DNA from: a virus | DNA length: 64,000 nucleotides | IMG/VR virus record: IMGVR_UViG_3300034759_000344 | Span: 32,187 to 96,186 of that record | Direction: 5' to 3' (one strand) | In this document: in pieces, positions 18,140 through 63,846 of the stretch | Layout of the letters: every line of letters starts with the position of its first letter | Position numbering within the stretch: the stretch's first letter is position 1 | Position numbers and translations under genes: made by a program | Notes under the pieces: model-generated | The model's database searches: none | What the model saw: the letters and a program-made list of their open reading frames with translations, nothing else | Told to the model about the DNA's origin: nothing

Positions 18140-18454
18140 TTAGCCTCCAATGATAACATTTGGAGAGCCAGTAGCTATTACTCCTACGTTGTTTTCACAG
18201 AAGCAAGAAAGTAAATCCCCTACTCTGGCTGCCCCCTTTCCATTGATAAGTACACTGCTGGATCCTTCAACTACGTTGCAGGGATGCGTGGTAACGCTTC
18301 CAATGTAGGCTGCAGGATGTCCGTTGATGAATACATTAGGGGAACAGTTAGTGGCAATTTCGTTTTGTAGTACCTGACAAGAGGGGTTTCCTTCTTCATC
18401 CTCAGTTACTTCCCAGCAGGTAGTTATGCTTCCTAAGTAGGCTCCCTGTGGCAT
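18140..18454 (-). CDS. PAAR-domain tail spike tip
   Basis: 104 residues with the PAAR layout: repeated short motifs NVFINGHPAAYIGSVTTH and SVLINGKGAARVGDLLS, and a C-terminal NVIIGG. PAAR proteins cap the central spike of contractile tails and bind a metal at the tip; His and Cys residues (H, C at several loops) are available. The ribosome site overlaps the stop codon of the upstream gene remnant. Confidence 0.85.
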   Translation of the reverse strand: MPQGAYLGSITTCWEVTEDEEGNPSCQVLQNEIATNCSPNVFINGHPAAYIGSVTTHPCNVVEGSSSVLINGKGAARVGDLLSCFCENNVGVIATGSPNVIIGG

Positions 18455-19767: not shown

Positions 19768-20484
19768 TCAATACTTGAAGTAGTTAACTCCCCATATTAA
19801 GTAGTTGTTTACAGGGCATACCCCTTCGGAGCAAGAAGAGCTTTCCTTTTTATTCTTGCTATTCTTGTTCTTCTTTAAGCAATACGCATCAGTGTAGTAG
19901 AGTACGTGTCCTCTTTCTACTAGATAGTTGATACGGTCCCATACTGGAACTTCAAGGGTAACTTTCATATCTGGATAGTACTTGCGCATGAACTCGTCAA
20001 AGCTATTGTGGCTTCCGAAGTAATACCATAAGTTCCATACGTAGACCTTACCATCTGGCCCGTAAGCGTAAGACAGAGCATGTCCTGGAGTTCCAATATC
20101 TTTCTTTGGATATATGTGCACATAGTAAGCTTCATACCCAAGTGCTTCTTTAGCAAGGTATGCAGTCATTAATGCCCAATCATCACAGTCTCCTTCCCAT
20201 TCTGGTTTTACTATAATACTCCCTTTATTTTTTGCATCTGGTATGCACTTCATTGGTAATTCTGCTGGTGTGAAATAATATCCATTGTATCCAGTTAGAA
20301 TTTTGTCCGAATTATATTCTGCATTTACACTTCTTAAATAGGTCTCGATCAGTTTAGGGGTAGTAATCCAATCGGGAAAGTCAAATAACTTTTGTGGTTC
20401 TGGGTCTATTGGTGTTGGTGCTATAAGGCACCCAGCTACGTTGAACAGCAAAGCAAAGATGACGATAATAGCTATCTTGCGCAT
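19768..20484 (-). CDS. transglutaminase-like lipoprotein
   Basis: 239 residues from ATG 20484. Residues 1-19 are a lipoprotein signal ending in NVAGC (lipobox, C19). The domain has the Cys-His-Asp/Asn arrangement of bacterial transglutaminase-like cysteine peptidases: EWEGDCDDWALMTAYLAKEA (C100), then GHALSYAYGPDGKVYVWN (H135). The C-terminus is Ser/Cys/Lys-rich (NKKESSSCSEGVC). A phage-made lipoprotein outside the cell might block superinfection or alter the wall; that is inference. A broken duplicate lies at 18463. Confidence 0.82.
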   Translation of the reverse strand: MRKIAIIVIFALLFNVAGCLIAPTPIDPEPQKLFDFPDWITTPKLIETYLRSVNAEYNSDKILTGYNGYYFTPAELPMKCIPDAKNKGSIIVKPEWEGDCDDWALMTAYLAKEALGYEAYYVHIYPKKDIGTPGHALSYAYGPDGKVYVWNLWYYFGSHNSFDEFMRKYYPDMKVTLEVPVWDRINYLVERGHVLYYTDAYCLKKNKNSKNKKESSSCSEGVCPVNNYLIWGVNYFKY

Positions 20485-20592
20485 TTGGACAATCACCTAT
20501 TCTAAAGTAGTTTTATAGACAGATATAAGGAAGTTAAGATTGGTTATAAGTAGTAAGGTTCTGAGCTTCTTCGGTGGTCAGCCAGGGACGCT

Positions 20593-21056: not shown

Positions 21057-22538
21057 TTAAACCTTATTAAAGTATGGAGAACCGAGTTCTGCCTTGTAAG
21101 TATAGCCAGCACCAGAAATGGATACTTTTAATATTGTGGTAGCGTTGTGAGGTATCCCATAAATACACCCATTGGTAGCAAGAATGCCACCGTCCCACTT
21201 GTACAAATCGGTCAAACTTCCAAAGGTGGTTATTGAGTCATCAGATGGATTTATCTTAAGAACTGTGGTAGCGTTGCTAGGTATCCCATAAATACACCCA
21301 TTGGTAGCAAGAATGCCACCTTCCCACTTGTACGAACCGGTCAAACTTCCAAAGGTGGTTATTGAGTCATCAGATGGATTTATCTTAAGAACTGTGGTAG
21401 CGTTGAAAGGTATCCCGTAAATACATCCGTTGGTAGCAAGAATGCCACCTTCCCACTTGATTGAGTCACTACTCAAACTTCCAAAGGTGGTTATTGAGTC
21501 ATCAGATGGATTTATCTTAAGAACTGTGGTAGCGTTGTGAGGTATCCCGTAAATACATCCATTGGTAGCAAGAACGCCACCAAACCACTTGTACGAACCG
21601 GTCAAACTTCCAAAGGTGGTTATTGAGTCATCAGATGGATTTATCTTAAGAACTGTGGTAGCGTAGTGAGGTATCCCATAAATACATCCATTGGTAGCAA
21701 GAACGCCACCAAACCACTTGTACGAACCGGTCAAACTTCCAAAGGTGGTTATTGAGTCATCAGATGGATTTATCTTAAGAACTGTGGTAGCGTTGTAAGG
21801 TATCCCGTAAATACATCCATTGGTAGCAAGAATGCCACCAGCCCACTTGATTGAGTCACTACTCAAACTTCCAAAGGTGGTTATTGAGTCATCAGATGGA
21901 TTTATCTTAAGAACTGTGGTAGCGTCGTGAGGTATCCCGTAAATACATCCATTGGTAGCAAGAACGCCACCAAACCACTTGTACGAACCGGTCAAACTTC
22001 CAAAGGTGGTTATTGAGTCGGTTGTGCTAACAGTAGTTACGTGCTCAAGTCCATAAAGAGCTGGTTTCCACGTCCAGAAATAGCTTAACAGGTAACCGTT
22101 TTGCGACAACACTTGCCGACCTACTGTGGAGTCGTGGATAACGGAAATGGCAGTATCGCTTTCTCGAATAATGCCCATTGCGTTGCTACTTTCGGCGATA
22201 ATGCCCATTGCGTTGCTACTTTCGGCGATAATGCCCATTGCGTTGCTACTCTCGGCGATAATGCCCATTGCGTTGCTACTCTCGGCGATAATGCCCATTG
22301 CGTTGCTACTCTCGGCGATAATGCCCATTGCGTTGCTACTCTCGGCGATAACACTCATAGTTTGCAGCGTTTTATAAGGTTCAAAGCCTATGCCAATGAC
22401 ACCACGAAAATACCGCCCAGTAGTCTTGTAGGCATCTGTAAGGGCAAGAATGTCGCTCAGGTTGCCATATAGGCCTTCAACAAACGTATTTAATTTATAC
22501 GTTCCACCGCCACGCCTAACAAGTGTCCCTTCGCCCAT
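21057..22538 (-). CDS. tail fibre with decapeptide repeats and seven-bladed propeller
   Basis: 493 residues. After about 60 N-terminal residues come six copies of a ten-residue repeat (AESSNAMGII), a linker region, then seven repeats of about 41-43 residues containing KW-GG-LATNGCIYGIP and ATTVLKINPSDDSITTFGSL. Seven repeats fit a closed beta-propeller, the likely receptor-binding head. Blade sequences are nearly identical, so recombination could change blade number. It is read directly after the fibre protein at 22539. Confidence 0.85.
   Translation of the reverse strand: MGEGTLVRRGGGTYKLNTFVEGLYGNLSDILALTDAYKTTGRYFRGVIGIGFEPYKTLQTMSVIAESSNAMGIIAESSNAMGIIAESSNAMGIIAESSNAMGIIAESSNAMGIIAESSNAMGIIRESDTAISVIHDSTVGRQVLSQNGYLLSYFWTWKPALYGLEHVTTVSTTDSITTFGSLTGSYKWFGGVLATNGCIYGIPHDATTVLKINPSDDSITTFGSLSSDSIKWAGGILATNGCIYGIPYNATTVLKINPSDDSITTFGSLTGSYKWFGGVLATNGCIYGIPHYATTVLKINPSDDSITTFGSLTGSYKWFGGVLATNGCIYGIPHNATTVLKINPSDDSITTFGSLSSDSIKWEGGILATNGCIYGIPFNATTVLKINPSDDSITTFGSLTGSYKWEGGILATNGCIYGIPSNATTVLKINPSDDSITTFGSLTDLYKWDGGILATNGCIYGIPHNATTILKVSISGAGYTYKAELGSPYFNKV
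22160..22345. repeat. six tandem 30-base repeats
   Basis: AATGCCCATTGCGTTGCTAC recurs six times at 30-base intervals from about 22169 to 22340. The copies differ only at one or two positions and encode the decapeptides in the propeller fibre. Such arrays are prone to length change. Confidence 0.9.
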
Positions 22539-23120
22539 TTACTTCACCACCTTGGCCGTGAATGGCAAGTCTACGGTTGGCTTCTCTATAGCATAAAAGG
22601 TTATGCTATTTGTTCCAGTTACTGCCCTGTAAATGTAGCCCCATTCCTCATTTCTTATGCTGTCTGTTGCGTAGTTTCCACTCATCACGACATCGATAAT
22701 TGGCTCATCATCAGCAGTAATTCCAGTAATTGAAACTGTTTGAGAATAAGGAGCAGCCGTTCCAGACCACCCAACAGCAGATAATGTTCCAGAGTAAGTG
22801 GCTACGGTGGCAAAGTCGGAAGCACTATACCCACTATCCTGTAAATTCCCCGTAGCGTCCAAAGAAGCAAGGTTGCCAGCAGTAGTGCCAGGAACCTTGT
22901 CGGCTTTATCATTATGGGTATGTGATGCTGGTGCTGCTCCTACCTGTTCATAGGTAACCTGGTGAGGGTTATCAGTACGCAGCTCATGTGAGTTTATTTG
23001 CACCTGCAAACTGTGCAAAGTGCTGTCTATAATAGTAAAGTTGTTGTTTAATTTGTCGTCCCAGTAAGTTTCACCCTCAGAAGGAAGATATAAGTTGTAG
23101 TTAGGAGTGTAAGTAGCCAC
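22539..23120 (-). CDS. tail-fibre protein
   Basis: 193 residues. The start YTPNYNLYLPSEGETYWDDK followed by NNFTIID is a common N-terminal attachment domain of Firmicute phage fibres, and NPHQVTYEQVGAAPASHTH is the usual shaft/hinge motif. The C-terminal 100 residues are a beta domain with GTNSITFYAIEKPTVDLPF near the end, as in short fibre heads. It is encoded directly before the propeller fibre. A paralogue of the N-terminal part is at 27185. Confidence 0.82.
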   Translation of the reverse strand: MATYTPNYNLYLPSEGETYWDDKLNNNFTIIDSTLHSLQVQINSHELRTDNPHQVTYEQVGAAPASHTHNDKADKVPGTTAGNLASLDATGNLQDSGYSASDFATVATYSGTLSAVGWSGTAAPYSQTVSITGITADDEPIIDVVMSGNYATDSIRNEEWGYIYRAVTGTNSITFYAIEKPTVDLPFTAKVVK

Positions 23121-23134
23121 CGACTATCCCCTCT

Positions 23135-23644
23135 TTAACTACAAGCTTGCTGGTACACTTCTTCAAAAGCTGAGTCCAGGAACTCCTCAGCATTTTGGGG
23201 AACTAAAACTCGTAGTGAAGTACCGCTGCTAGTATTTTTCAAAGACTCTATGGCTCGCAGTACGTTTATGCTTAACTGGGTAAGCAAACCCATAGTTGTG
23301 GTTAGTGTACTCTCGTTACTGATAATTGCTTGAGCAATTAGACGGGACATTACCAACTCGTTGAACAAGTTAGGTTCATCACTTTCTATTCCGCTTGCAT
23401 CAACCAATTCTCCAAATTCTTCAGATTCCAGATAATCGTGGATTTCTTTAATGTGTTTATTGAAGCCTTCATTGAGGTGGTAGATACAGAATATATTTTT
23501 GAACAAGTAGTTGAGCTGGGCTAACTCGTCTCTGTTTAGCTGAAAAGCATTAGCTTTCTCAATTAAAGAATCTATGTGCCTATCATCGCAGTTTCCCATT
23601 AACCAATAGTAGGGTTTAAGCTCTTTACTGCTAATAGTCAACAC
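23135..23644 (-). CDS. unknown helical protein next to radical-SAM genes
   Basis: 169 residues, mainly helical, unrecognised. It contains SKELKPYYWLMGNCDDRHID near the start and a hydrophobic stretch with IAQAIISNESTLTTTMGLLT. It starts three bases after the stop of the second radical-SAM gene, so it belongs to the same translational unit. It could be a third component of the modification cassette or a fibre chaperone. Confidence 0.65.
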   Translation of the reverse strand: MLTISSKELKPYYWLMGNCDDRHIDSLIEKANAFQLNRDELAQLNYLFKNIFCIYHLNEGFNKHIKEIHDYLESEEFGELVDASGIESDEPNLFNELVMSRLIAQAIISNESTLTTTMGLLTQLSINVLRAIESLKNTSSGTSLRVLVPQNAEEFLDSAFEEVYQQACS

Positions 23645-23647
23645 CAG

Positions 23648-24778
23648 TTACACCTCACATTTATTCCAAGGTAACTTTATACGCACTTCGTTTTGGTATC
23701 TCAAAAGCATTTTGCACACATCAGGTATGGGAATGGCTAAATCGCCCCAAAACTCAAGCTGTGCTCCCAAGCATCCTCCAGCACAGTACTCTTGGTTGAT
23801 AGGGAATTTGCACTTATGACATATCAGATTGTTATTGCGGTGGAAGTAATAAAAGAACAGAAACTTATTGCAGTCCATGTTTTCTAAATCATGAATGCTT
23901 CCAATCTTTAAATCAGGGTATATTAAGCGGTGACAAGGATAAATACTTCCATCCCAAGCTACGGTAAGCTGGGTTTGAAAACTGCAGGTCAGCCCTCTTT
24001 TTACCATCCCTGGTGTGCGGAATAGGTTAAACTGAGTTTCTCCCAGATTGATGTTTTCTTTTTGTATATAATTAATACACTTCCAGCTTTCCTCTATAAG
24101 GGTGTTTATGCGGTCGTCGTGCCAGGTTCCTCCGTTCCTCACCTGGAGCAGGAATAAATCATCTCCTACTGGATGGTCCTTGCCTCGAACCAAGCGCACG
24201 TTATCTACAAAAAACTTGAAAGTGTCAAACAAAGTATGCACAGTGGGAGCGTAGACCATAGGATGAAATCCACACAAATATCCTTCTCCATAAAGCTTAA
24301 AGAGGTTGTCGTAGTCAAGTTTTAAGTGTTTATACTCAGGGAGGCTGGGCCTCTGTTTTTCTTCCACATAAGGACCGTCAACTGAGAAGCTGAGGTTGAG
24401 CTTTCCGTACTTTTTATACAACCGCTTTATCTCTTCGGGATAGGTGGAGGCAACCCACCCGTTGTTGGGTATATTGACTAAAAATATCTGTGGGTCTTTA
24501 GCTGCTTTCTGAAGTACGTACTCAACCAAGTCTAACTGTAGAAGAGGTTCTCCACCGAACAAATCGATTTTAAACGGACGGTTTCGATACTGCTTTATCT
24601 TGGCTACAGCGGTATCTATAGTTTCTATGCTCATTTTTGGAGACTTATTACCTTGATTGTGTCGGGGCATGTAGCAGTAGCGGCAGCGTAAGTTGCACTC
24701 TGGTGACAGTATTAACTCTAAAGTCTGGAACAGTTGGTGATTTAGTAGTCTTTTAACATGCAGGAATAGTTCGTTCAA
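23648..24778 (-). CDS. radical-SAM/SPASM maturase 2
   Basis: 376 residues. The 4Fe-4S motif CNLRCRYC (C28, C32, C35) is followed by LFGGEPLLQ, the SAM-binding GGE motif, and FSVDGPYV. The C-terminal SPASM domain has an AWDGSIYPCHRL segment, then CHKCKFPINQEYCAGGCLG, giving ligands for auxiliary Fe-S clusters, as in sulfatase maturases and peptide-modifying enzymes. It overlaps the first radical-SAM gene by 26 bases. Probable role: oxidative modification of a protein or peptide made nearby; substrate unproven. Confidence 0.9.
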   Translation of the reverse strand: MNELFLHVKRLLNHQLFQTLELILSPECNLRCRYCYMPRHNQGNKSPKMSIETIDTAVAKIKQYRNRPFKIDLFGGEPLLQLDLVEYVLQKAAKDPQIFLVNIPNNGWVASTYPEEIKRLYKKYGKLNLSFSVDGPYVEEKQRPSLPEYKHLKLDYDNLFKLYGEGYLCGFHPMVYAPTVHTLFDTFKFFVDNVRLVRGKDHPVGDDLFLLQVRNGGTWHDDRINTLIEESWKCINYIQKENINLGETQFNLFRTPGMVKRGLTCSFQTQLTVAWDGSIYPCHRLIYPDLKIGSIHDLENMDCNKFLFFYYFHRNNNLICHKCKFPINQEYCAGGCLGAQLEFWGDLAIPIPDVCKMLLRYQNEVRIKLPWNKCEV

Positions 24779-25898
24779 AATTGCTCTGCCCCCATTCTTT
24801 GTAGTGTTTGTAGAACACTTTTACTATTTTGCAGAAATGAAAGTTTGGTGAGTAGTGAAGTCGGTTTAGATTGTGCATGTCCATAGGACATTGCCAGCAC
24901 AAAAAGGGAAATTCTTGGTACACTTCACATTCTTGCTGTTTACAGAAAGCAGCTCTAATTAGGTCGTAGTTATATTTGAAATACACATTGCGGTAAACGG
25001 CTTTGGGATCCAGGTACTCTGCATAAACGTTCCCTAATTTGAAGTAGTCCTGCTTGGTGTTGTCTGTAGACGGTCCGTGGCAGTGGTAAATGCTTCCATC
25101 TAAATCAACACATACTTGAGAATGACATGCTGAACAAACGTTGTTGGGCCTGTTGAAGTACACAAACCATCCCAGTTGTGCCTTTTCATTCTTTTCACAG
25201 TACTCTTTACAGCGGTAAAGGTCTTCATCAAGAGCTTGGGCAGCTTCTTCATCATAAACACTGTCTTTGACTAAGGTAACTGGAGACATAGGATGTTTTA
25301 GCTCTTCCCAAAAGAATTCGCAGGCTTTGTAGAAGTGCCCTTTTTTGACTTGTTCAGGACTTAAAGTGGACTTTATCATCAATTTACTGGTGAAATCTGG
25401 TATTTCTTTGGTCATTATTTCGTAATGTTCCATAACTTTATGGAAAGACCCTTCTCCACCCGCTGTCTTTCTTGCGTAGTCGTGTACTTCTTGAGGTCCA
25501 TCAAGGCTTAGCTGTATGCTTTCAATTTTGTCCCAGTGTTTTTTAACAAACTTGACATAACTTTCGGGAGTGGTAGTGGCATTGGTTGACCAGTTGGTGG
25601 TTACTGGACAGTCAGAGTAATTTTGGAATATGTAAGTAAGTACTTCTTCAATGGTATCCCATTGACATAGTGGTTCGGCACCCCACGGTATGATCTTGCA
25701 CGGAGTGTTGGGTTTAAGTATGTTGGGAAAAACCTTTCTTATCGGCTCTAAAAGCGGAATAACTTCATTGGCTTTAATTTCTATTTGTTTGTAGGTAGCA
25801 TCTCTGATATAGCAGTAAGAGCAGCGGAGATTACATTTTTTGGACATGGGAATTTCTATAACATAAATGCTTTTAAGAAATTTGGACAAGTCTACCAT
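24753..25898 (-). CDS. radical-SAM/SPASM maturase 1
   Basis: 381 residues from ATG 25898, chosen because GGAGG lies six bases upstream (the frame continues to 25952). CNLRCSYC (C22, C26, C29) is the radical-SAM motif; IIPWGAEPLCQWD replaces GGEP; SLDGPQEVHDYARKT follows. SPASM-type cysteines appear as VCSACHSQVCVDLDGSIYHC and FLCWQCPMD. Its start lies within the end of the small gene at 25873 and its end within maturase 2. Together with 23648 it forms a pair, suggesting two-step or heteromeric modification. Confidence 0.9.
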   Translation of the reverse strand: MVDLSKFLKSIYVIEIPMSKKCNLRCSYCYIRDATYKQIEIKANEVIPLLEPIRKVFPNILKPNTPCKIIPWGAEPLCQWDTIEEVLTYIFQNYSDCPVTTNWSTNATTTPESYVKFVKKHWDKIESIQLSLDGPQEVHDYARKTAGGEGSFHKVMEHYEIMTKEIPDFTSKLMIKSTLSPEQVKKGHFYKACEFFWEELKHPMSPVTLVKDSVYDEEAAQALDEDLYRCKEYCEKNEKAQLGWFVYFNRPNNVCSACHSQVCVDLDGSIYHCHGPSTDNTKQDYFKLGNVYAEYLDPKAVYRNVYFKYNYDLIRAAFCKQQECEVYQEFPFLCWQCPMDMHNLNRLHYSPNFHFCKIVKVFYKHYKEWGQSNFERTIPAC

Positions 25899-26193
25899 AA
25901 AATGCCTCCAATACTGCCTCAAATGAAGGTAAGTAGCAAGGACCTTTTGCACTTACCGCATTGTTGGTACTGTTAACTCCATCTACACTACGTTGATGGT
26001 GGGCAGTAGAGTTCAAAGTGGAATAGCTCAAACTGTGCCCATCGTTACTGTATACTGCTTTGTTGTAGCTTGTGTAGTAAGAGCTGTTGTGAGTAGGACA
26101 GGCAGCTTCCAAGCTCTCTATAGCAGTCCTTAATTCAGAAATATGTACTTGTCTCACTTTTGTGGTATTAGTTATACTATCGGTCCAAGACAT
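25873..26193 (-). CDS. small Tyr/Ser/Asn-rich protein, candidate maturase substrate
   Basis: 106 residues with GGAGG five bases before the ATG. The N-terminus MSWTDSITNTTKVRQVHISE then LRTAIESL resembles the HINELR-type module of phage and cell-surface proteins. Residues 32-90 are low complexity: Tyr, Ser, Asn, His and Thr dominate (HNSSYYTSYNKAVYSNDGHS), with a Cys at each end of the tract. It shares its N-terminal design with the neighbour at 26206 and overlaps maturase 1 by 26 bases. Candidate precursor or fibre tip modified by the radical-SAM pair; this is inference. Confidence 0.7.
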   Translation of the reverse strand: MSWTDSITNTTKVRQVHISELRTAIESLEAACPTHNSSYYTSYNKAVYSNDGHSLSYSTLNSTAHHQRSVDGVNSTNNAVSAKGPCYLPSFEAVLEAFYGRLVQIS

Positions 26194-26205
26194 GATTGCC
26201 TCCGT

Positions 26206-26592
26206 TTATACGTAGTGCACGCAGTTGCCACTACCCAAAGCATAGTTGTATTTAGCAGTTCCGTTTTCGCTTGAGTCGTGGCCGCTGTAGTTGGATCCGT
26301 AATCAATACTGTGAGCAGTTCCGTAGTTAGAACAGTAACCGTCGTAGCTTGAGTTATAGGAGCGTACGGTAGTATGGTGAGTACCACAGCCAACAGTTAG
26401 CGGGGTTCCATCAACAGCAGAACGCAGGTCATTTATATGAGAAGCAAGAATTTTACTTTGCTCAGCAGTAATATTTATGGAAAGCTGGGAATACCCACGC
26501 TCACTACGCTCTGTGTTGAGCCTGGATACTATTTCGTCAATATGTATCTTTCTGATTTTAATATTGGTTAAATTAGTATCTGTCCAAGCCAT
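26206..26592 (-). CDS. small Tyr/Gly/Ser/His-rich protein, candidate maturase substrate
   Basis: 128 residues. The N-terminus MAWTDTNLTNIKIRKIHIDE parallels the 25873 protein, with a second module ASHINDLRSAVDG at about residues 49-61. The last 62 residues contain 9 Tyr, 10 Ser, 9 Gly, 6 Asn, 5 His and 3 Cys (for example SYNSSYDGYCSNYGTAHS). It starts three bases after the previous stop and lacks a strong ribosome site, so it is probably coupled. The leader-plus-core look suggests a modified peptide or an adhesin tip. Confidence 0.7.
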   Translation of the reverse strand: MAWTDTNLTNIKIRKIHIDEIVSRLNTERSERGYSQLSINITAEQSKILASHINDLRSAVDGTPLTVGCGTHHTTVRSYNSSYDGYCSNYGTAHSIDYGSNYSGHDSSENGTAKYNYALGSGNCVHYV

Positions 26593-26595
26593 GGG

Positions 26596-26937
26596 TTAGT
26601 GGATTTGCCTAATGACAATATCCAAATCACAAACTGGAATACCGAAGGTGAGGTTTATTTGGTCCAATAAGTAACCAGGTTCTGTGTTTCCTATAGTGTA
26701 AAAGCACTTGGTGTTGTAGTAGAGGTTCATCTCAATAGGCTTTTTAGCCACTTCGTTCAGCTGACTGGCAATGCGTACAGCATCTTCAGGAGACACGTTA
26801 ATGCGTATGTGCATTACATTTATTAAAGATCCGTCGCTGGCAATTTCTTTGTTCTGCATCATGGAAAGAAACCCTACTTCCTCAGCCAAAACTGTCTCAG
26901 TATTTTCTCTATCTATGATTTCTATGGAATAGCCCAT
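26596..26937 (-). CDS. unknown fibre-operon protein
   Basis: 113 residues, mixed alpha/beta, unrecognised: MGYSIEIIDRENTETVLAEE at the start, then HIRINVSPEDAVRIASQLNE and a C-terminal strand-rich part. It lies in a tightly packed run between a fibre gene (27185) and the modification cassette. Perhaps a structural adaptor; no motif decides. Confidence 0.6.
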   Translation of the reverse strand: MGYSIEIIDRENTETVLAEEVGFLSMMQNKEIASDGSLINVMHIRINVSPEDAVRIASQLNEVAKKPIEMNLYYNTKCFYTIGNTEPGYLLDQINLTFGIPVCDLDIVIRQIH

Positions 26938-26939
26938 AG

Positions 26940-27188
26940 TTACACCTCCATGGGAATCAAATACATTTCAGAGAGTTTATGGCAGGTATAGATACTTACG
27001 GTCTTCAAGTTAATGAAGTATGTGTTGTTTTCCCACTCTACTTCCAGGTTGTATCCAGGGTTTACGTAGTTCATAATTGACTGCAGTACTGGAAAAGATC
27101 CTCTGATGCGAATTCTGTTTCCTGTAGGCAGCTCATCTACCCCGACATAATCTACTTCAAACTCTCTTCCATTTATTAAAATATTCAT
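26940..27188 (-). CDS. small beta-rich fibre-operon protein
   Basis: 82 residues: MNILINGREFEVDYVGVDEL, GNRIRIRGSFPVLQSIMNYV and YNLEVEWENNTYFINL suggest a compact beta domain. It overlaps the end of the 27185 gene by four bases and is followed two bases later by the next gene. Function unknown; it is likely co-assembled with fibres. Confidence 0.6.
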   Translation of the reverse strand: MNILINGREFEVDYVGVDELPTGNRIRIRGSFPVLQSIMNYVNPGYNLEVEWENNTYFINLKTVSIYTCHKLSEMYLIPMEV

Positions 27189-28282
27189 CTTATCAACACC
27201 TTTATTTTCCTAACTTCATGCCGTCCTACACTTTCCATAGCTTTAGCTACCACTTCTTGGTTGCGTTTGGCTTTTTTCAGCATCCCGTCTTTTCCTACAG
27301 TAAGTGGGTCTCCAGGTTTCACGCCTTTTTTACCACCATCCACTTTGGCATACACTTGACCTACTAAAGCTAAAGGAACTTTCTTGTGTTTTTGGTATTC
27401 TTCTTCCCAGTTATGGGTCATACCTAAAAGCAGTCCTGGATGATAAGAAACTATACCTGCAAAGCTACCTCCATTTACTGCTTTCATAACCCTACCGTCA
27501 TCTGTGAACACCATTACTGTACCTTCTTCAGGCAGCCTAGGTTCTACAGTAATAAATCCTTCAGCAAGGTCGGAATTGTACACGGCTCCCACTAATCCGT
27601 AATCATTGACATAAGCTCTGGTAGTTCCTCCAGTCTGGAAATAGATAGTTTGCCCTGAAGGAACATTTATGCCAGTAGCTGAAGTGTTGCTTTTCCATAC
27701 AAAGTCCTCAGCATGTTTATTATCTACAGTATCGGCATTGTCAGCCTGCTCTACACTTCCATCACTATCTGGGTCATAGGTAGCTTTGGTCATCTCTCCA
27801 GCTACAGTGTAATTACTGCCATCAGTTGAAAACTCAAGCAGGGAGCCGTTAACCCTGAAGTGGATGTTATCTACGGTATCTGAATTGTCAGCTTGTTCTA
27901 CGCTTCCATCATCATCAGGGTCATAAGCGGATTTAGTCATTTCCCCAGCTACAATGTAGTTGCGACCGTCAGTCGAAAATTCCAGCAGTCCAGCGCTGAC
28001 TCTTAGGTGGACGTTGTCCACGGTATCAGCATTGGCAGCCTGAGGTACCTGACCGTAGATATCGCTACCTACATGCTGGTGCTGCGCAGGAGCAGCACCA
28101 GTTTGGTCATAGGTGACTTGATGGGGATTGTTAGTGTCATTTTTGTGAGCATTTAACAATCCAGTTAAGGAAGCTATAAGACTGTCTATAGTTTCCAAAT
28201 TCCCGTTTATCTCATCGTGCCAGTTTACGTCTCCTGGTGCTGGTAAAGCAAAATTGTAGTTCGGAGTGTAGCTGTTAGCCAT
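27185..28282 (-). CDS. tail-fibre protein with C-terminal peptidase-like domain
   Basis: 365 residues. The N-terminus SYTPNYNFALPAPGDVNWHD and NPHQVTYDQTGAAPAQHQH match the fibre at 22539. The shaft has two near-identical repeats (DTVDN-HLRV/HFRV, LLEFSTDG, YTVAGEMTK, YDPDSDGSVEQAD). The last 150 residues, from YNSDLAEGFITVEPRLPEEG onward, including MVFTDDGRVMKAV and PLALVGQVYAKV, resemble the hedgehog/peptidase-like C-terminal domain of many phage fibres. It would form a host-contact fibre. Confidence 0.8.
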   Translation of the reverse strand: MANSYTPNYNFALPAPGDVNWHDEINGNLETIDSLIASLTGLLNAHKNDTNNPHQVTYDQTGAAPAQHQHVGSDIYGQVPQAANADTVDNVHLRVSAGLLEFSTDGRNYIVAGEMTKSAYDPDDDGSVEQADNSDTVDNIHFRVNGSLLEFSTDGSNYTVAGEMTKATYDPDSDGSVEQADNADTVDNKHAEDFVWKSNTSATGINVPSGQTIYFQTGGTTRAYVNDYGLVGAVYNSDLAEGFITVEPRLPEEGTVMVFTDDGRVMKAVNGGSFAGIVSYHPGLLLGMTHNWEEEYQKHKKVPLALVGQVYAKVDGGKKGVKPGDPLTVGKDGMLKKAKRNQEVVAKAMESVGRHEVRKIKVLIR

Positions 28283-31878: not shown

Positions 31879-32391
31879 TTAGAAGTTGAATACGATGTAG
31901 AATACTTCGTACTGATTGGGCTGAATGTGCAGCGGTTCTCGATTAGACACCCACTCAAGGTATCCCGTAAATTCCACTTCAGATGGAAGCAGTAAGGTTT
32001 TTCCTTCATTGCCTGCAGTTGGTACCAACTTGCTGTATAGTCCTACCTGACGGAAAGTAACATCGTCACTGATATCGGTATCAGTAATAGTTGCTTTAAT
32101 GAGTATTGTGGTCACCAGGTTGTTGCGAGCAAATTCTTCGGATACTGCTTTATAAGTTACTCCTTGTACTATGTACTCGCCTGTAGTATCTTCTACCACA
32201 AAGGTTTTAACGTCTGCTTTTTTAAAGATTACTGGTTCTTCTACGTCTAAAATATCTGGACTTACTATAGGTGGATTATTTTCATCTGGCCAGGGAGTGG
32301 TTCTACCTATACAAATCCATAAATCTCCAGATATGAAATCCATAGCTCTTGATATGTTTCCAATTACAGGAATGGCAATACTATTTGGCAT
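31879..32391 (-). CDS. baseplate/tail-fibre connector protein
   Basis: 170 residues, beta-rich: DLWICIGRTTPWPDENNPPI, DVTFRQVGLYSKLVP and WVSNREPLHIQPNQYEVFYI. The pattern with a -RTTPW-DE-NPP- segment and a late REPI-like block is common in T4-like and Firmicute phage baseplate wedge-associated proteins. It lies between gpI-like and DUF4815 genes. Function by position only. Confidence 0.65.
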   Translation of the reverse strand: MPNSIAIPVIGNISRAMDFISGDLWICIGRTTPWPDENNPPIVSPDILDVEEPVIFKKADVKTFVVEDTTGEYIVQGVTYKAVSEEFARNNLVTTILIKATITDTDISDDVTFRQVGLYSKLVPTAGNEGKTLLLPSEVEFTGYLEWVSNREPLHIQPNQYEVFYIVFNF

Positions 32392-38380: not shown

Positions 38381-39703
38381 TTAGAGGCACGCGACTTCAG
38401 TCGTGTGAGATATAGAATAGTTTGTTTTTGTCTTGCTATATTGCCAACCATCGGCTGTTTGAATCAGCTTGCAGTACTTATAACTTATTCCCTGACATAC
38501 CCTTTTGCCATTTTTATCCTTAATGTCGAAAAATCCGCTTGCTCTCACTGCTACCATACCCATCCAGATACCAGCGTACTTTCCTCGTGGTACAATAGCT
38601 TTAACTATATCTCCAGTTTGGAAACCAAAGTGTTTCTTACATCTTTGCCTATGCCCACGTGGGAAACCAAACTTATCTGTATTACACATCTGCCTTGTTC
38701 CACGACCAACTGCACGCCATATTTGCACATAACTTTGTGTTATACGTATCTCGCTCGGTGTACTCTCACCAACACAACATGCATCGAAATAGTGCTCTTT
38801 GGGAAACCCCAGACGAATGCGATTTGCCTTTGTTAGCGCTCCTGTTCCGTATTCAACTGGTATTCCAAAACCGCTTAATGATTTGCGCAGATATGAGCGT
38901 ATCGAGTTCATGAATGCTGCTTGCTTGTATGTTTGTCTAGCCTGCTCTTGAACATGTGGGTATCCAAACTCAACAGCTGTTTTGTTGCCCTTCTTTTGGT
39001 TACACTCGTGGCAAGCAAGTGTTAGATTTGATACTCTATCTGTGCCACCTCTTGACCTTGGTACGATGTGGTCGATTTCCAGTGGTACGTCACTTCTACC
39101 ACAGTACGCACACTTTCGTCCCCACTTTTCCAAAAGATATTCCCTTACCTCGTAGCCAAAAAGCGTGCCTCGTTGGTATTCGATACCAGAAATCTCTGGA
39201 TTTTGCAACTTTTGAGTATCAAACTTTGCATCTTCGATGGATATTGCACTTATTGGCAACAGCTTTGTCAGTTTCCTTACCGCATTTATAAGCTGGTCTA
39301 CTCTTGCTTTGAGCGATGGTGGCAGCCACCCTTCAGGCCGTCTGCGATTTAGAAACCTAGGCTTTTGATATCTAGTCTTTCTGTTTCTTCTACTTCGACG
39401 AACAGCACGCCTGGCATCAAGTTTTTGCTTTATGTCTGTCTTGTGGTGTATCTCGCAAAGAAAAACTGTTTCTGCTACATCGCCGTCTTCTCGCAAAACT
39501 GCTACTCCTGTAGTTTTTGCGCCAGGGTCAAGTTTTAGCCTTAATGGTTGCAACTGACTTTGCTGTACTGTTCTGTCTTTTAGACGTATAGTGAACGGAT
39601 GCATTTTGTGGACTACTGCCCTGTCACGACTTAGTAACTGTCTTGCGCGCTTTTCTGAACACGGCATCAGAGGCTTTTTGTTTTTGTCCAACACAAACAC
39701 CAT
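38381..39703 (-). CDS. iscB: IscB RNA-guided endonuclease
   Basis: 440 residues from ATG 39703 (AAGGAG eight bases upstream; the frame is open to GTG 39712). Domains in order: PLMP (residues 11-14), RuvC-I LKLDPGAKTTG (D59), an Arg-rich bridge helix (98-125), RuvC-II SIEDAKF (E157), HNH with CAYC, DHIVPRSRGG (H212) and CHEC zinc pair, RuvC-III HYFDAC (H304, D307), and a C-terminal target-binding region with FGFQTGDIVKAIVPRGKYAG. All nuclease residues look intact. Cas9-ancestor family enzyme guided by the upstream omega RNA. The last residues and stop lie in the element's end hairpin. Confidence 0.93.
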   Translation of the reverse strand: MVFVLDKNKKPLMPCSEKRARQLLSRDRAVVHKMHPFTIRLKDRTVQQSQLQPLRLKLDPGAKTTGVAVLREDGDVAETVFLCEIHHKTDIKQKLDARRAVRRSRRNRKTRYQKPRFLNRRRPEGWLPPSLKARVDQLINAVRKLTKLLPISAISIEDAKFDTQKLQNPEISGIEYQRGTLFGYEVREYLLEKWGRKCAYCGRSDVPLEIDHIVPRSRGGTDRVSNLTLACHECNQKKGNKTAVEFGYPHVQEQARQTYKQAAFMNSIRSYLRKSLSGFGIPVEYGTGALTKANRIRLGFPKEHYFDACCVGESTPSEIRITQSYVQIWRAVGRGTRQMCNTDKFGFPRGHRQRCKKHFGFQTGDIVKAIVPRGKYAGIWMGMVAVRASGFFDIKDKNGKRVCQGISYKYCKLIQTADGWQYSKTKTNYSISHTTEVACL

Positions 39704-39712
39704 GTGTCTCAC

Positions 39713-63444: not shown

Positions 63445-63846
63445 ATGCGATTAGATACCAACAACCATTCAGTATTCTTGTTATATTATCATCTTGTTTT
63501 GGTAACTAAATATAGAAGAAAAGTTATTGATGACAATATATCAAATAGACTAAAAGAAATATTTGAGAAAATACAAGATAATTATAATATAACATTACAA
63601 GAATGGAATCATGATAAAGACCATGTGCATATATTATTCAAAGCACATCCTAACACAGAGTTGTCAAAATTCATAAATGCATATAAAAGCGCTTCATCGA
63701 GATTGATAAAGAAAGAGTTTCCTGAAATCAAGCAACAACTTTGGAAGGAATATTTTTGGTCAAGAAGCTATTGTTTGCTTACTACAGGTGGTGAACCAAT
63801 TGAAGTAATTAAAAGATATATAGAATCACAAGGAAAGGAGGCGTAA
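63445..63846 (+). CDS. tnpA: IS200/IS605 transposase TnpA (Y1 HUH)
   Basis: 133 residues. The HUH motif is H60-V61-H62 in HDKDHVHILF, and the nucleophilic tyrosine is Y125 in EVIKRYIESQG. Length is typical of the single-strand transposases that recognise end hairpins and move DNA at replication forks. It could mobilise the transposase-less elements elsewhere in this window if their ends are compatible. Followed after two bases by tnpB. Confidence 0.95.
   Translation: MRLDTNNHSVFLLYYHLVLVTKYRRKVIDDNISNRLKEIFEKIQDNYNITLQEWNHDKDHVHILFKAHPNTELSKFINAYKSASSRLIKKEFPEIKQQLWKEYFWSRSYCLLTTGGEPIEVIKRYIESQGKEA

Follow-up and report, generated by a model that had tools for sequence, protein, structure and literature searches.

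A set of five genes in the tail-fibre operon of a virus probably constitutes a phage-encoded cassette for the post-translational modification of tail-fibre-associated proteins, in which a pair of radical S-adenosylmethionine (rSAM) enzymes, rSAM1 and rSAM2, would act on two small proteins, P1 and P2. The window, i.e., the whole stretch of DNA that was analysed, comprises 64,000 nucleotides (positions 32,187 to 96,186) of the 96,186-base IMG/VR virus record IMGVR_UViG_3300034759_000344. The cassette is located on the minus strand between fibre genes at positions 23135-26592 of the window and encodes, in this order, P1, P2, rSAM1, rSAM2 and a 169-aa (amino acid) protein; the coordinates and the open reading frames (ORFs) were confirmed. 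The genes and their overlaps, the conservation of the cassette, the joint inheritance of the two enzymes and the ties of the relatives' substrates to fibre domains are seen directly in the sequence and carry this reading. Loci with related enzymes or modules are labelled with L numbers (L003, L009 and so on). The features of the cassette are:

26206-26592, minus strand: P1, candidate substrate 1, 128 aa, two N-terminal modules and a Tyr/Ser/His/Gly/Asn-rich C-terminus; non-window module profile E=1.8e-7, two domains
26404-26463, minus strand: second module copy of P1 (residues 44-63), from the module profile
26209-26388, minus strand: putative core of P1, beginning at CGTHHT (C..H[NDH][ST] motif)
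25873-26193, minus strand: P2 (106 aa), the second candidate substrate, with a single N-terminal module and a tract rich in Tyr, Ser, Asn and His; E=8.9e-7 with the non-window module profile
25876-26100, minus strand: putative core of P2, beginning at CPTHNS (C..H[NDH][ST] motif)
25873-25898, minus strand: overlap of P2 and rSAM1, 26 bases, seen in the sequence; similar overlaps in L010 and L112
24753-25898, minus strand: rSAM1 (381 aa), radical-SAM enzyme with its radical-SAM Cys at 25812-25835; PF04055 42.5 bits
24753-24778, minus strand: overlap of rSAM1 and rSAM2, 26 bases, seen in the sequence
23648-24778, minus strand: rSAM2 (376 aa), radical-SAM enzyme with a SPASM domain (~23714-23986) and its radical-SAM Cys at 24674-24697; PF04055 54.7 bits, TIGR04085 37.3 bits
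23135-23644, minus strand: 169-aa protein, by its position in the slot of the ~160-190-aa third protein of relatives

The start of rSAM1 was taken as the ATG at 25898, and the ORF list gives an earlier GTG start. A preliminary description of this DNA had reported that the two rSAM genes overlap by 26 bases and that the first of them overlaps the gene of the 106-residue protein, and both overlaps were confirmed. As the spacings from P1 to the 169-aa gene are +12, -26, -26 and +3 bases, the translation of these genes is probably coupled.

Conservation of the cassette

A scan of viral contigs with alignment profiles revealed 80 loci with related enzymes, and at least two rSAM genes are present in 52 of 68 non-redundant loci. 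In single-sequence scans of viral contigs rSAM1 found no locus and rSAM2 one, and a degenerate DNA pattern of the module gave no match in these contigs; the alignment of the substrate proteins was too divergent to be used as a scan query. A scan with a baseplate protein found no sister phages. The preliminary description had proposed to search for co-occurrence of the enzymes and the small proteins and had named enzyme homologues in related phages without small proteins as the finding that would speak against its idea. The window order, i.e., double-module protein, single-module protein, rSAM1, rSAM2 and third protein, recurs in the virus contigs L009, L010 and L012, in L112 from a Nanohalarchaeota bin and in L113 from a Thermoplasmata bin, the latter two being short contigs in archaeal bins that are probably viral. 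L013 contains the same gene set with the substrates placed downstream of the third protein. Six independent relatives of the enzyme pair offer sufficient sequence on their flanks (L009, L010, L012, L013, L112 and L113), and module proteins are present in each of them, an outcome that speaks for the idea. The counterpart of P1 is the double-module protein of L009, L012, L112 and L113, that of P2 the single-module protein of the relatives, and the third protein of the closest relatives has 157-186 aa, with gaps and overlaps as small as in the window.

In a maximum-likelihood tree of 120 representative enzymes, the first enzymes of L009, L010, L012 and L013 form a group with rSAM1 and their second enzymes one with rSAM2, i.e., the enzyme pair is co-inherited. 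The L003 enzyme, to which rSAM2 is 33% identical, joins the second-enzyme group. Within the locus set, 31 module proteins are encoded at a distance of at most 2.5 kb from an rSAM gene and none farther away (p=1e-8), a p-value that, as for proximity p-values in general here, is overstated because rSAM genes served to select the loci, which moreover are related by descent; for Cys-rich proteins the numbers are 44 and 5, respectively. The core classes of the relatives comprise period-8 octad repeats (L009, L010 and L113), CNCNYCTC repeats and CTCTC tracts. Both L003 and L009 read TGA as Trp, as in-frame TGA codons occupy conserved Trp positions of rSAM2; TAG recoding was considered for L003 and rejected, as TGA=W fits.

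In another virus contig (L111, 6947-9860) the gene after a tandem rSAM pair encodes a protein of 239 aa with CDCDCMCDCSCDCECDCDC at its C-terminal end.

The radical-SAM enzymes

Both enzymes score above the PF04055 cut-off of 29.5 bits and possess the CxxxCxxC motif (C22-x3-C26-x2-C29 in rSAM1, C28-x3-C32-x2-C35 in rSAM2). The preliminary description had classified both as SPASM enzymes. This holds for rSAM2, in which TIGR04085 exceeds its cut-off of 27 bits and seven Cys follow the SPASM order, with PF13186 at 20.8 bits slightly below its cut-off of 21.5; in rSAM1 the domain was not recognised, but the Cys pattern of the first SPASM half is retained (C255...G268-x4-C273). The closest models of the enzymes are maturases of ribosomally synthesized and post-translationally modified peptides (RiPPs), e.g., PapB, CcpM and the nif11 maturase, and the profiles of both enzyme groups match structures of peptide-modifying rSAM enzymes (5wgg and 4k37). 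The best NCBIfam match of both is PapB (NF047865) with 97.2 bits for rSAM2 and 101.7 bits for rSAM1, below the equivalog cut-off of 340, and the HxsB model scores 58.6 and 53.5 bits, below its equivalog cut-off of 370. Membership in the PapB ranthipeptide maturases was rejected by the former cut-off, membership in the His-Xaa-Ser system by the latter and by the lack of triplet repeats in P1 and P2. An identity as viperin or pVip was also rejected, with rSAM2 at 36 bits against a cut-off of 180 and PADLOC matches of 27-39 bits confined to the rSAM core. The reaction of rSAM1 and rSAM2 cannot be named because no curated equivalog cut-off is reached.

The weak viperin-model matches are compatible with the alternative that rSAM1 and rSAM2 serve in auxiliary metabolism or in nucleic-acid modification and that P1 and P2 are unrelated fibre accessories in their neighbourhood, and rSAM enzymes of Campylobacter phages were published as metabolic (PMC2853527, those of CP220 among them) or DNA-protective (PMC3322345). 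However, the gene order is strict and co-inherited across distant contigs, module proteins occur solely near rSAM genes within the locus set, and rSAM2 reaches 97 bits with PapB vs 39 bits with pVip, so that this alternative is considered unlikely.

The small proteins P1 and P2

The preliminary description had noticed a common N-terminal design in the 106- and 128-residue proteins, and the two proteins indeed align in this module (BLASTP E=4e-6). The module follows the design W[ST]D...HINELRxAI, is helical-looking and is present in one copy in P2 and in two copies in P1. When the module profile was built without the window proteins and used among 6008 ORFs, P1 and P2 were the sole significant matches beyond other rSAM-side proteins, and with an octad-class profile P2 (E=0.023) and P1 (0.03) ranked among other rSAM-side proteins. 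The low-complexity C-termini rich in Tyr, Ser, His, Asn and Gly with few Cys were confirmed as well (three Cys in P1, two in P2). The motif C-x-x-H-[NDH]-[ST] comes after the module in P1, P2, L010, L012, L112 and L113, where it starts the C-terminal tract; it is found 13 times in 705,788 aa of ORFs, a rarity that is partly post hoc because the motif had been broadened so as to include P1. The layout is precursor-like, i.e., an N-terminal module and a separate core beside enzymes of modifying type, and it is conserved in the relatives, with the module also occurring elsewhere without rSAM. In NCBIfam, Pfam and PHROG, no curated family reaches its cut-off with P1, P2 or the 169-aa protein, and P1 and P2 had no match in cultured phages by tblastn.

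The occurrence of the module in proteins without rSAM might indicate a structural role, and the cassette is flanked by fibre genes; it could therefore be imagined that another target, e.g., the 493-aa or the 365-aa fibre described below, is modified and that P1 and P2 are adaptors or chaperones presenting it. In most relatives, though, the repeats are located in the module proteins themselves, and the Cys motif at the core start is common to them, which renders such a role very unlikely.

Association with tail fibres

Three genes flanking the cassette match phage tail-fibre families of PHROG, in accordance with the tail-fibre operon described before. The neighbouring features are:

27185-28282, minus strand: tail-fibre protein, 365 aa, operon head, C-terminal 'SDLAE' domain; PHROG tail fiber
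26940-27188, minus strand: 82-aa protein between the 365-aa fibre and P1, uncertain cassette membership; ORF with no family match
26596-26937, minus strand: 113-aa protein between the 365-aa fibre and P1, uncertain cassette membership; ORF with no family match above cut-off
22539-23120, minus strand: fibre protein, 193 aa, N-terminal design common with the 365-aa fibre; PHROG tail fiber
21057-22538, minus strand: repeat-rich fibre protein, 493 aa; PHROG tail fiber 4.8e-14, tandem repeats

The C-terminus of the 365-aa fibre matches a YADLAE/SDLAE profile derived from rSAM-side fibres of other phages (E=7.8e-11), and YADLAE-type fibre domains are encoded beside rSAM genes in ~30 loci, some of them near-identical, as counted at rSAM loci. 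Several module or Cys-repeat proteins of relatives end in the intramolecular chaperone domain Peptidase_S74, above the Pfam cut-off, a domain that is absent from P1 and P2, and the L010 substrate bears a LamG domain. As a prophage example, the Velamenicoccus locus L121 encodes a module protein and rSAM near a homologue of the central tail fibre J, and in a prophage-like region of Ca. Velamenicoccus archaeovorus (L201) a three-module protein with a Tyr/His/Ser/Cys-rich tail adjoins three rSAM genes.

These fibre links also bear on the possibility, raised in the preliminary description, of a released modified peptide, in which the enzymes would mature P1 and P2 into a RiPP-like bacteriocin or signal and the phage would be a carrier only. 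It would fit the precursor-like layout of P1 and P2 and the RiPP maturases as closest enzyme models, and many biosynthetic gene clusters are present on phage genomes according to a review (PMC12360287). It is nevertheless disfavoured and regarded as improbable, because neither an exporter nor a leader-processing protease was seen among the cassette genes or in the inspected relatives, fibre chaperone or LamG domains form part of the substrates in relatives, and the cassettes are located in tail modules and beside fibre genes. The modification of a fibre tip, which had been suggested as the other possibility, is in contrast well supported by comparative genomics, i.e., by the cassette order, the co-inherited enzyme pair and the fusions of substrates to fibre domains, with the modification itself predicted from the sequence.

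Within the 493-aa fibre gene, a 30-base tandem repeat at 22168-22351 (6.1 copies, 99% match) encodes IIAESSNAMG decapeptides and a 129-base repeat array is located at 21135-22019; copy-number variation of this fibre is possible.

Points weighing against a modification cassette

Several observations weigh against the reading as a modification cassette. A SPASM domain is not recognisable in rSAM1 (Pfam E<=1; NCBIfam, best 25 of 59 families), and the AlphaFold models are of low confidence, with a predicted local distance difference test (pLDDT) score of 49 for rSAM1 and 43 for the 169-aa protein, too poor for a fold search. The 169-aa protein, which the preliminary description had regarded as completing the unit, corresponds in position to the third protein of the relatives but shows no detectable sequence similarity to it. 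P1 and P2 do not have the octad periodicity of the relatives: no periodicity was found in their C-termini, neither has lag 3 among its top lags, and period-8 repeats, strong in the relatives, were rejected by the periodicity test, because of which repeated modification is less obvious for P1 and P2. An automatic rule flagged no substrate in 25 of the 68 loci; among these, L030, L031, L040, L042, L052 and L083 encode Cys-repeat proteins below the density threshold. In the Omnitrophota locus L203 (5724-13271, minus strand), several secreted host proteins contain the module, and the 16 kb that were read hold no rSAM gene; rSAM systems therefore do not have the module to themselves, and it may be that this ELR-type N-terminal module is a general surface-protein module. 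Among 145 Omnitrophota genomes it was found in four, two of them with the module in tail modules beside rSAM, one with a contig too short to tell and one with it in secreted host proteins as described. The leader-like module of the preliminary description is conserved beside rSAM pairs, but with host proteins carrying it without rSAM nearby its role as an enzyme-recognition leader is one that we infer.

Comparison with known systems

PapB and the ranthipeptide maturases are rSAM enzymes acting on ribosomal peptides and provide the best NCBIfam match; unlike in the PapB system, the candidate substrates in the window are fibre-linked and Cys-poor, and the scores amount to 97 and 102 vs 340 bits. 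The sequence-detectable relatives of the window enzymes include the SCIFF maturase CteB (structure 5wgg) and the anaerobic sulfatase-maturating enzyme (4k37). The SCIFF maturase acts on a short Cys-rich peptide and the anaerobic sulfatase-maturating enzyme on one Cys or Ser of the sulfatase, and both, unlike the window cassette, are without a known link to fibres. In the His-Xaa-Ser gene layout (HxsA/HxsB/HxsC/HxsD) two rSAM enzymes are assumed to mature a target with His/Ser-containing repeats. The window likewise encodes two rSAM enzymes with a candidate His/Ser-containing target, which differs in the absence of triplet repeats from P1 and P2 and in HxsB scores below the cut-off; to our knowledge, the His-Xaa-Ser system has not been reported from phage tail modules. 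The Campylobacter phage CP220 encodes the rSAM enzymes gp136 and gp023, which are related to rSAM1 and rSAM2 and, unlike the window pair, are not adjacent to each other. CP220 gp140 (L005, 1161-2765), whose annotation reads hypothetical with DNA repeats, belongs to the type of CDCNYCTC-repeat protein that accompanies rSAM clusters. It contains six C[DN]CNY repeats, adjoins the RNA ligase/tail-fibre attachment gene and is separated from gp136 by three genes; in contrast to P1 and P2, it has no clear N-terminal module and its repeats are Cys-rich. HxsB and HxsC of the His-Xaa-Ser system are named in PMC9062424.

Proposed mechanism and significance

In the modification mechanism proposed here, P1 and P2 would be made ribosomally, with one or two N-terminal modules followed by a Tyr/Ser/His/Asn-rich core starting at C-x-T-H, and rSAM1 and rSAM2 would be produced by coupled translation from the P1/P2 message. 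The enzymes would bind the N-terminal module as putative recognition element and use SAM-derived radicals on the core, most likely for cross-linking of side chains as the best guess from the enzyme family, with epimerisation or oxidation of Ser/Cys as alternative chemistries. Judging from gene context and relatives, the modified core would end on the fibre or baseplate tip, where it may alter fibre stability or receptor binding. The recurrence in distant phages and in archaea-binned contigs points to chemical remodelling, by some viruses, of the tips with which they attach to cells. We lean slightly towards the wider view that dedicated rSAM sets of many tailed viruses, bacterial and probably also archaeal, covalently remodel repeat-containing or low-complexity tips of the viruses' own fibres, as an undescribed step of virion maturation in which the substrate classes (CNCNY, octad and Tyr/Ser/His) undergo different chemistries.

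No paper describing the system or tying phage radical-SAM enzymes to fibre modification was found in a search that was thin on subscription papers and did not cover preprints, because of which the novelty is provisional. If true, this would explain a recurrent viral rSAM gene set, make chemical modification a part of fibre maturation and perhaps of receptor-binding variation, and provide a source of many new peptide-modifying enzymes. The cultured Campylobacter phages (CP220, gp140) make the idea testable by mass spectrometry.

The phage and other features of the window

The portal protein of the window phage shares 43% identity with its counterpart in Lysinibacillus phage LysYB1 and ~42% with that in SPO1, which makes the virus a distant SPO1-like phage of the contractile type, probably with a host among the Bacillota. 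In the tail region, a 104-aa protein resembling a PAAR spike tip is encoded at 18140-18454 (minus strand), and the protein encoded downstream of the fibres at 19768-20496 (minus strand) is lipoprotein-like and has a Cys/His region that is possibly transglutaminase-like. Between tail genes, a protein at 38381-39712 (minus strand) with an RRXRR start and an HNH motif presumably resembles an IscB-type RNA-guided nuclease, and a small protein near the window end (63445-63846, plus strand) resembles an IS200/IS605 TnpA transposase.

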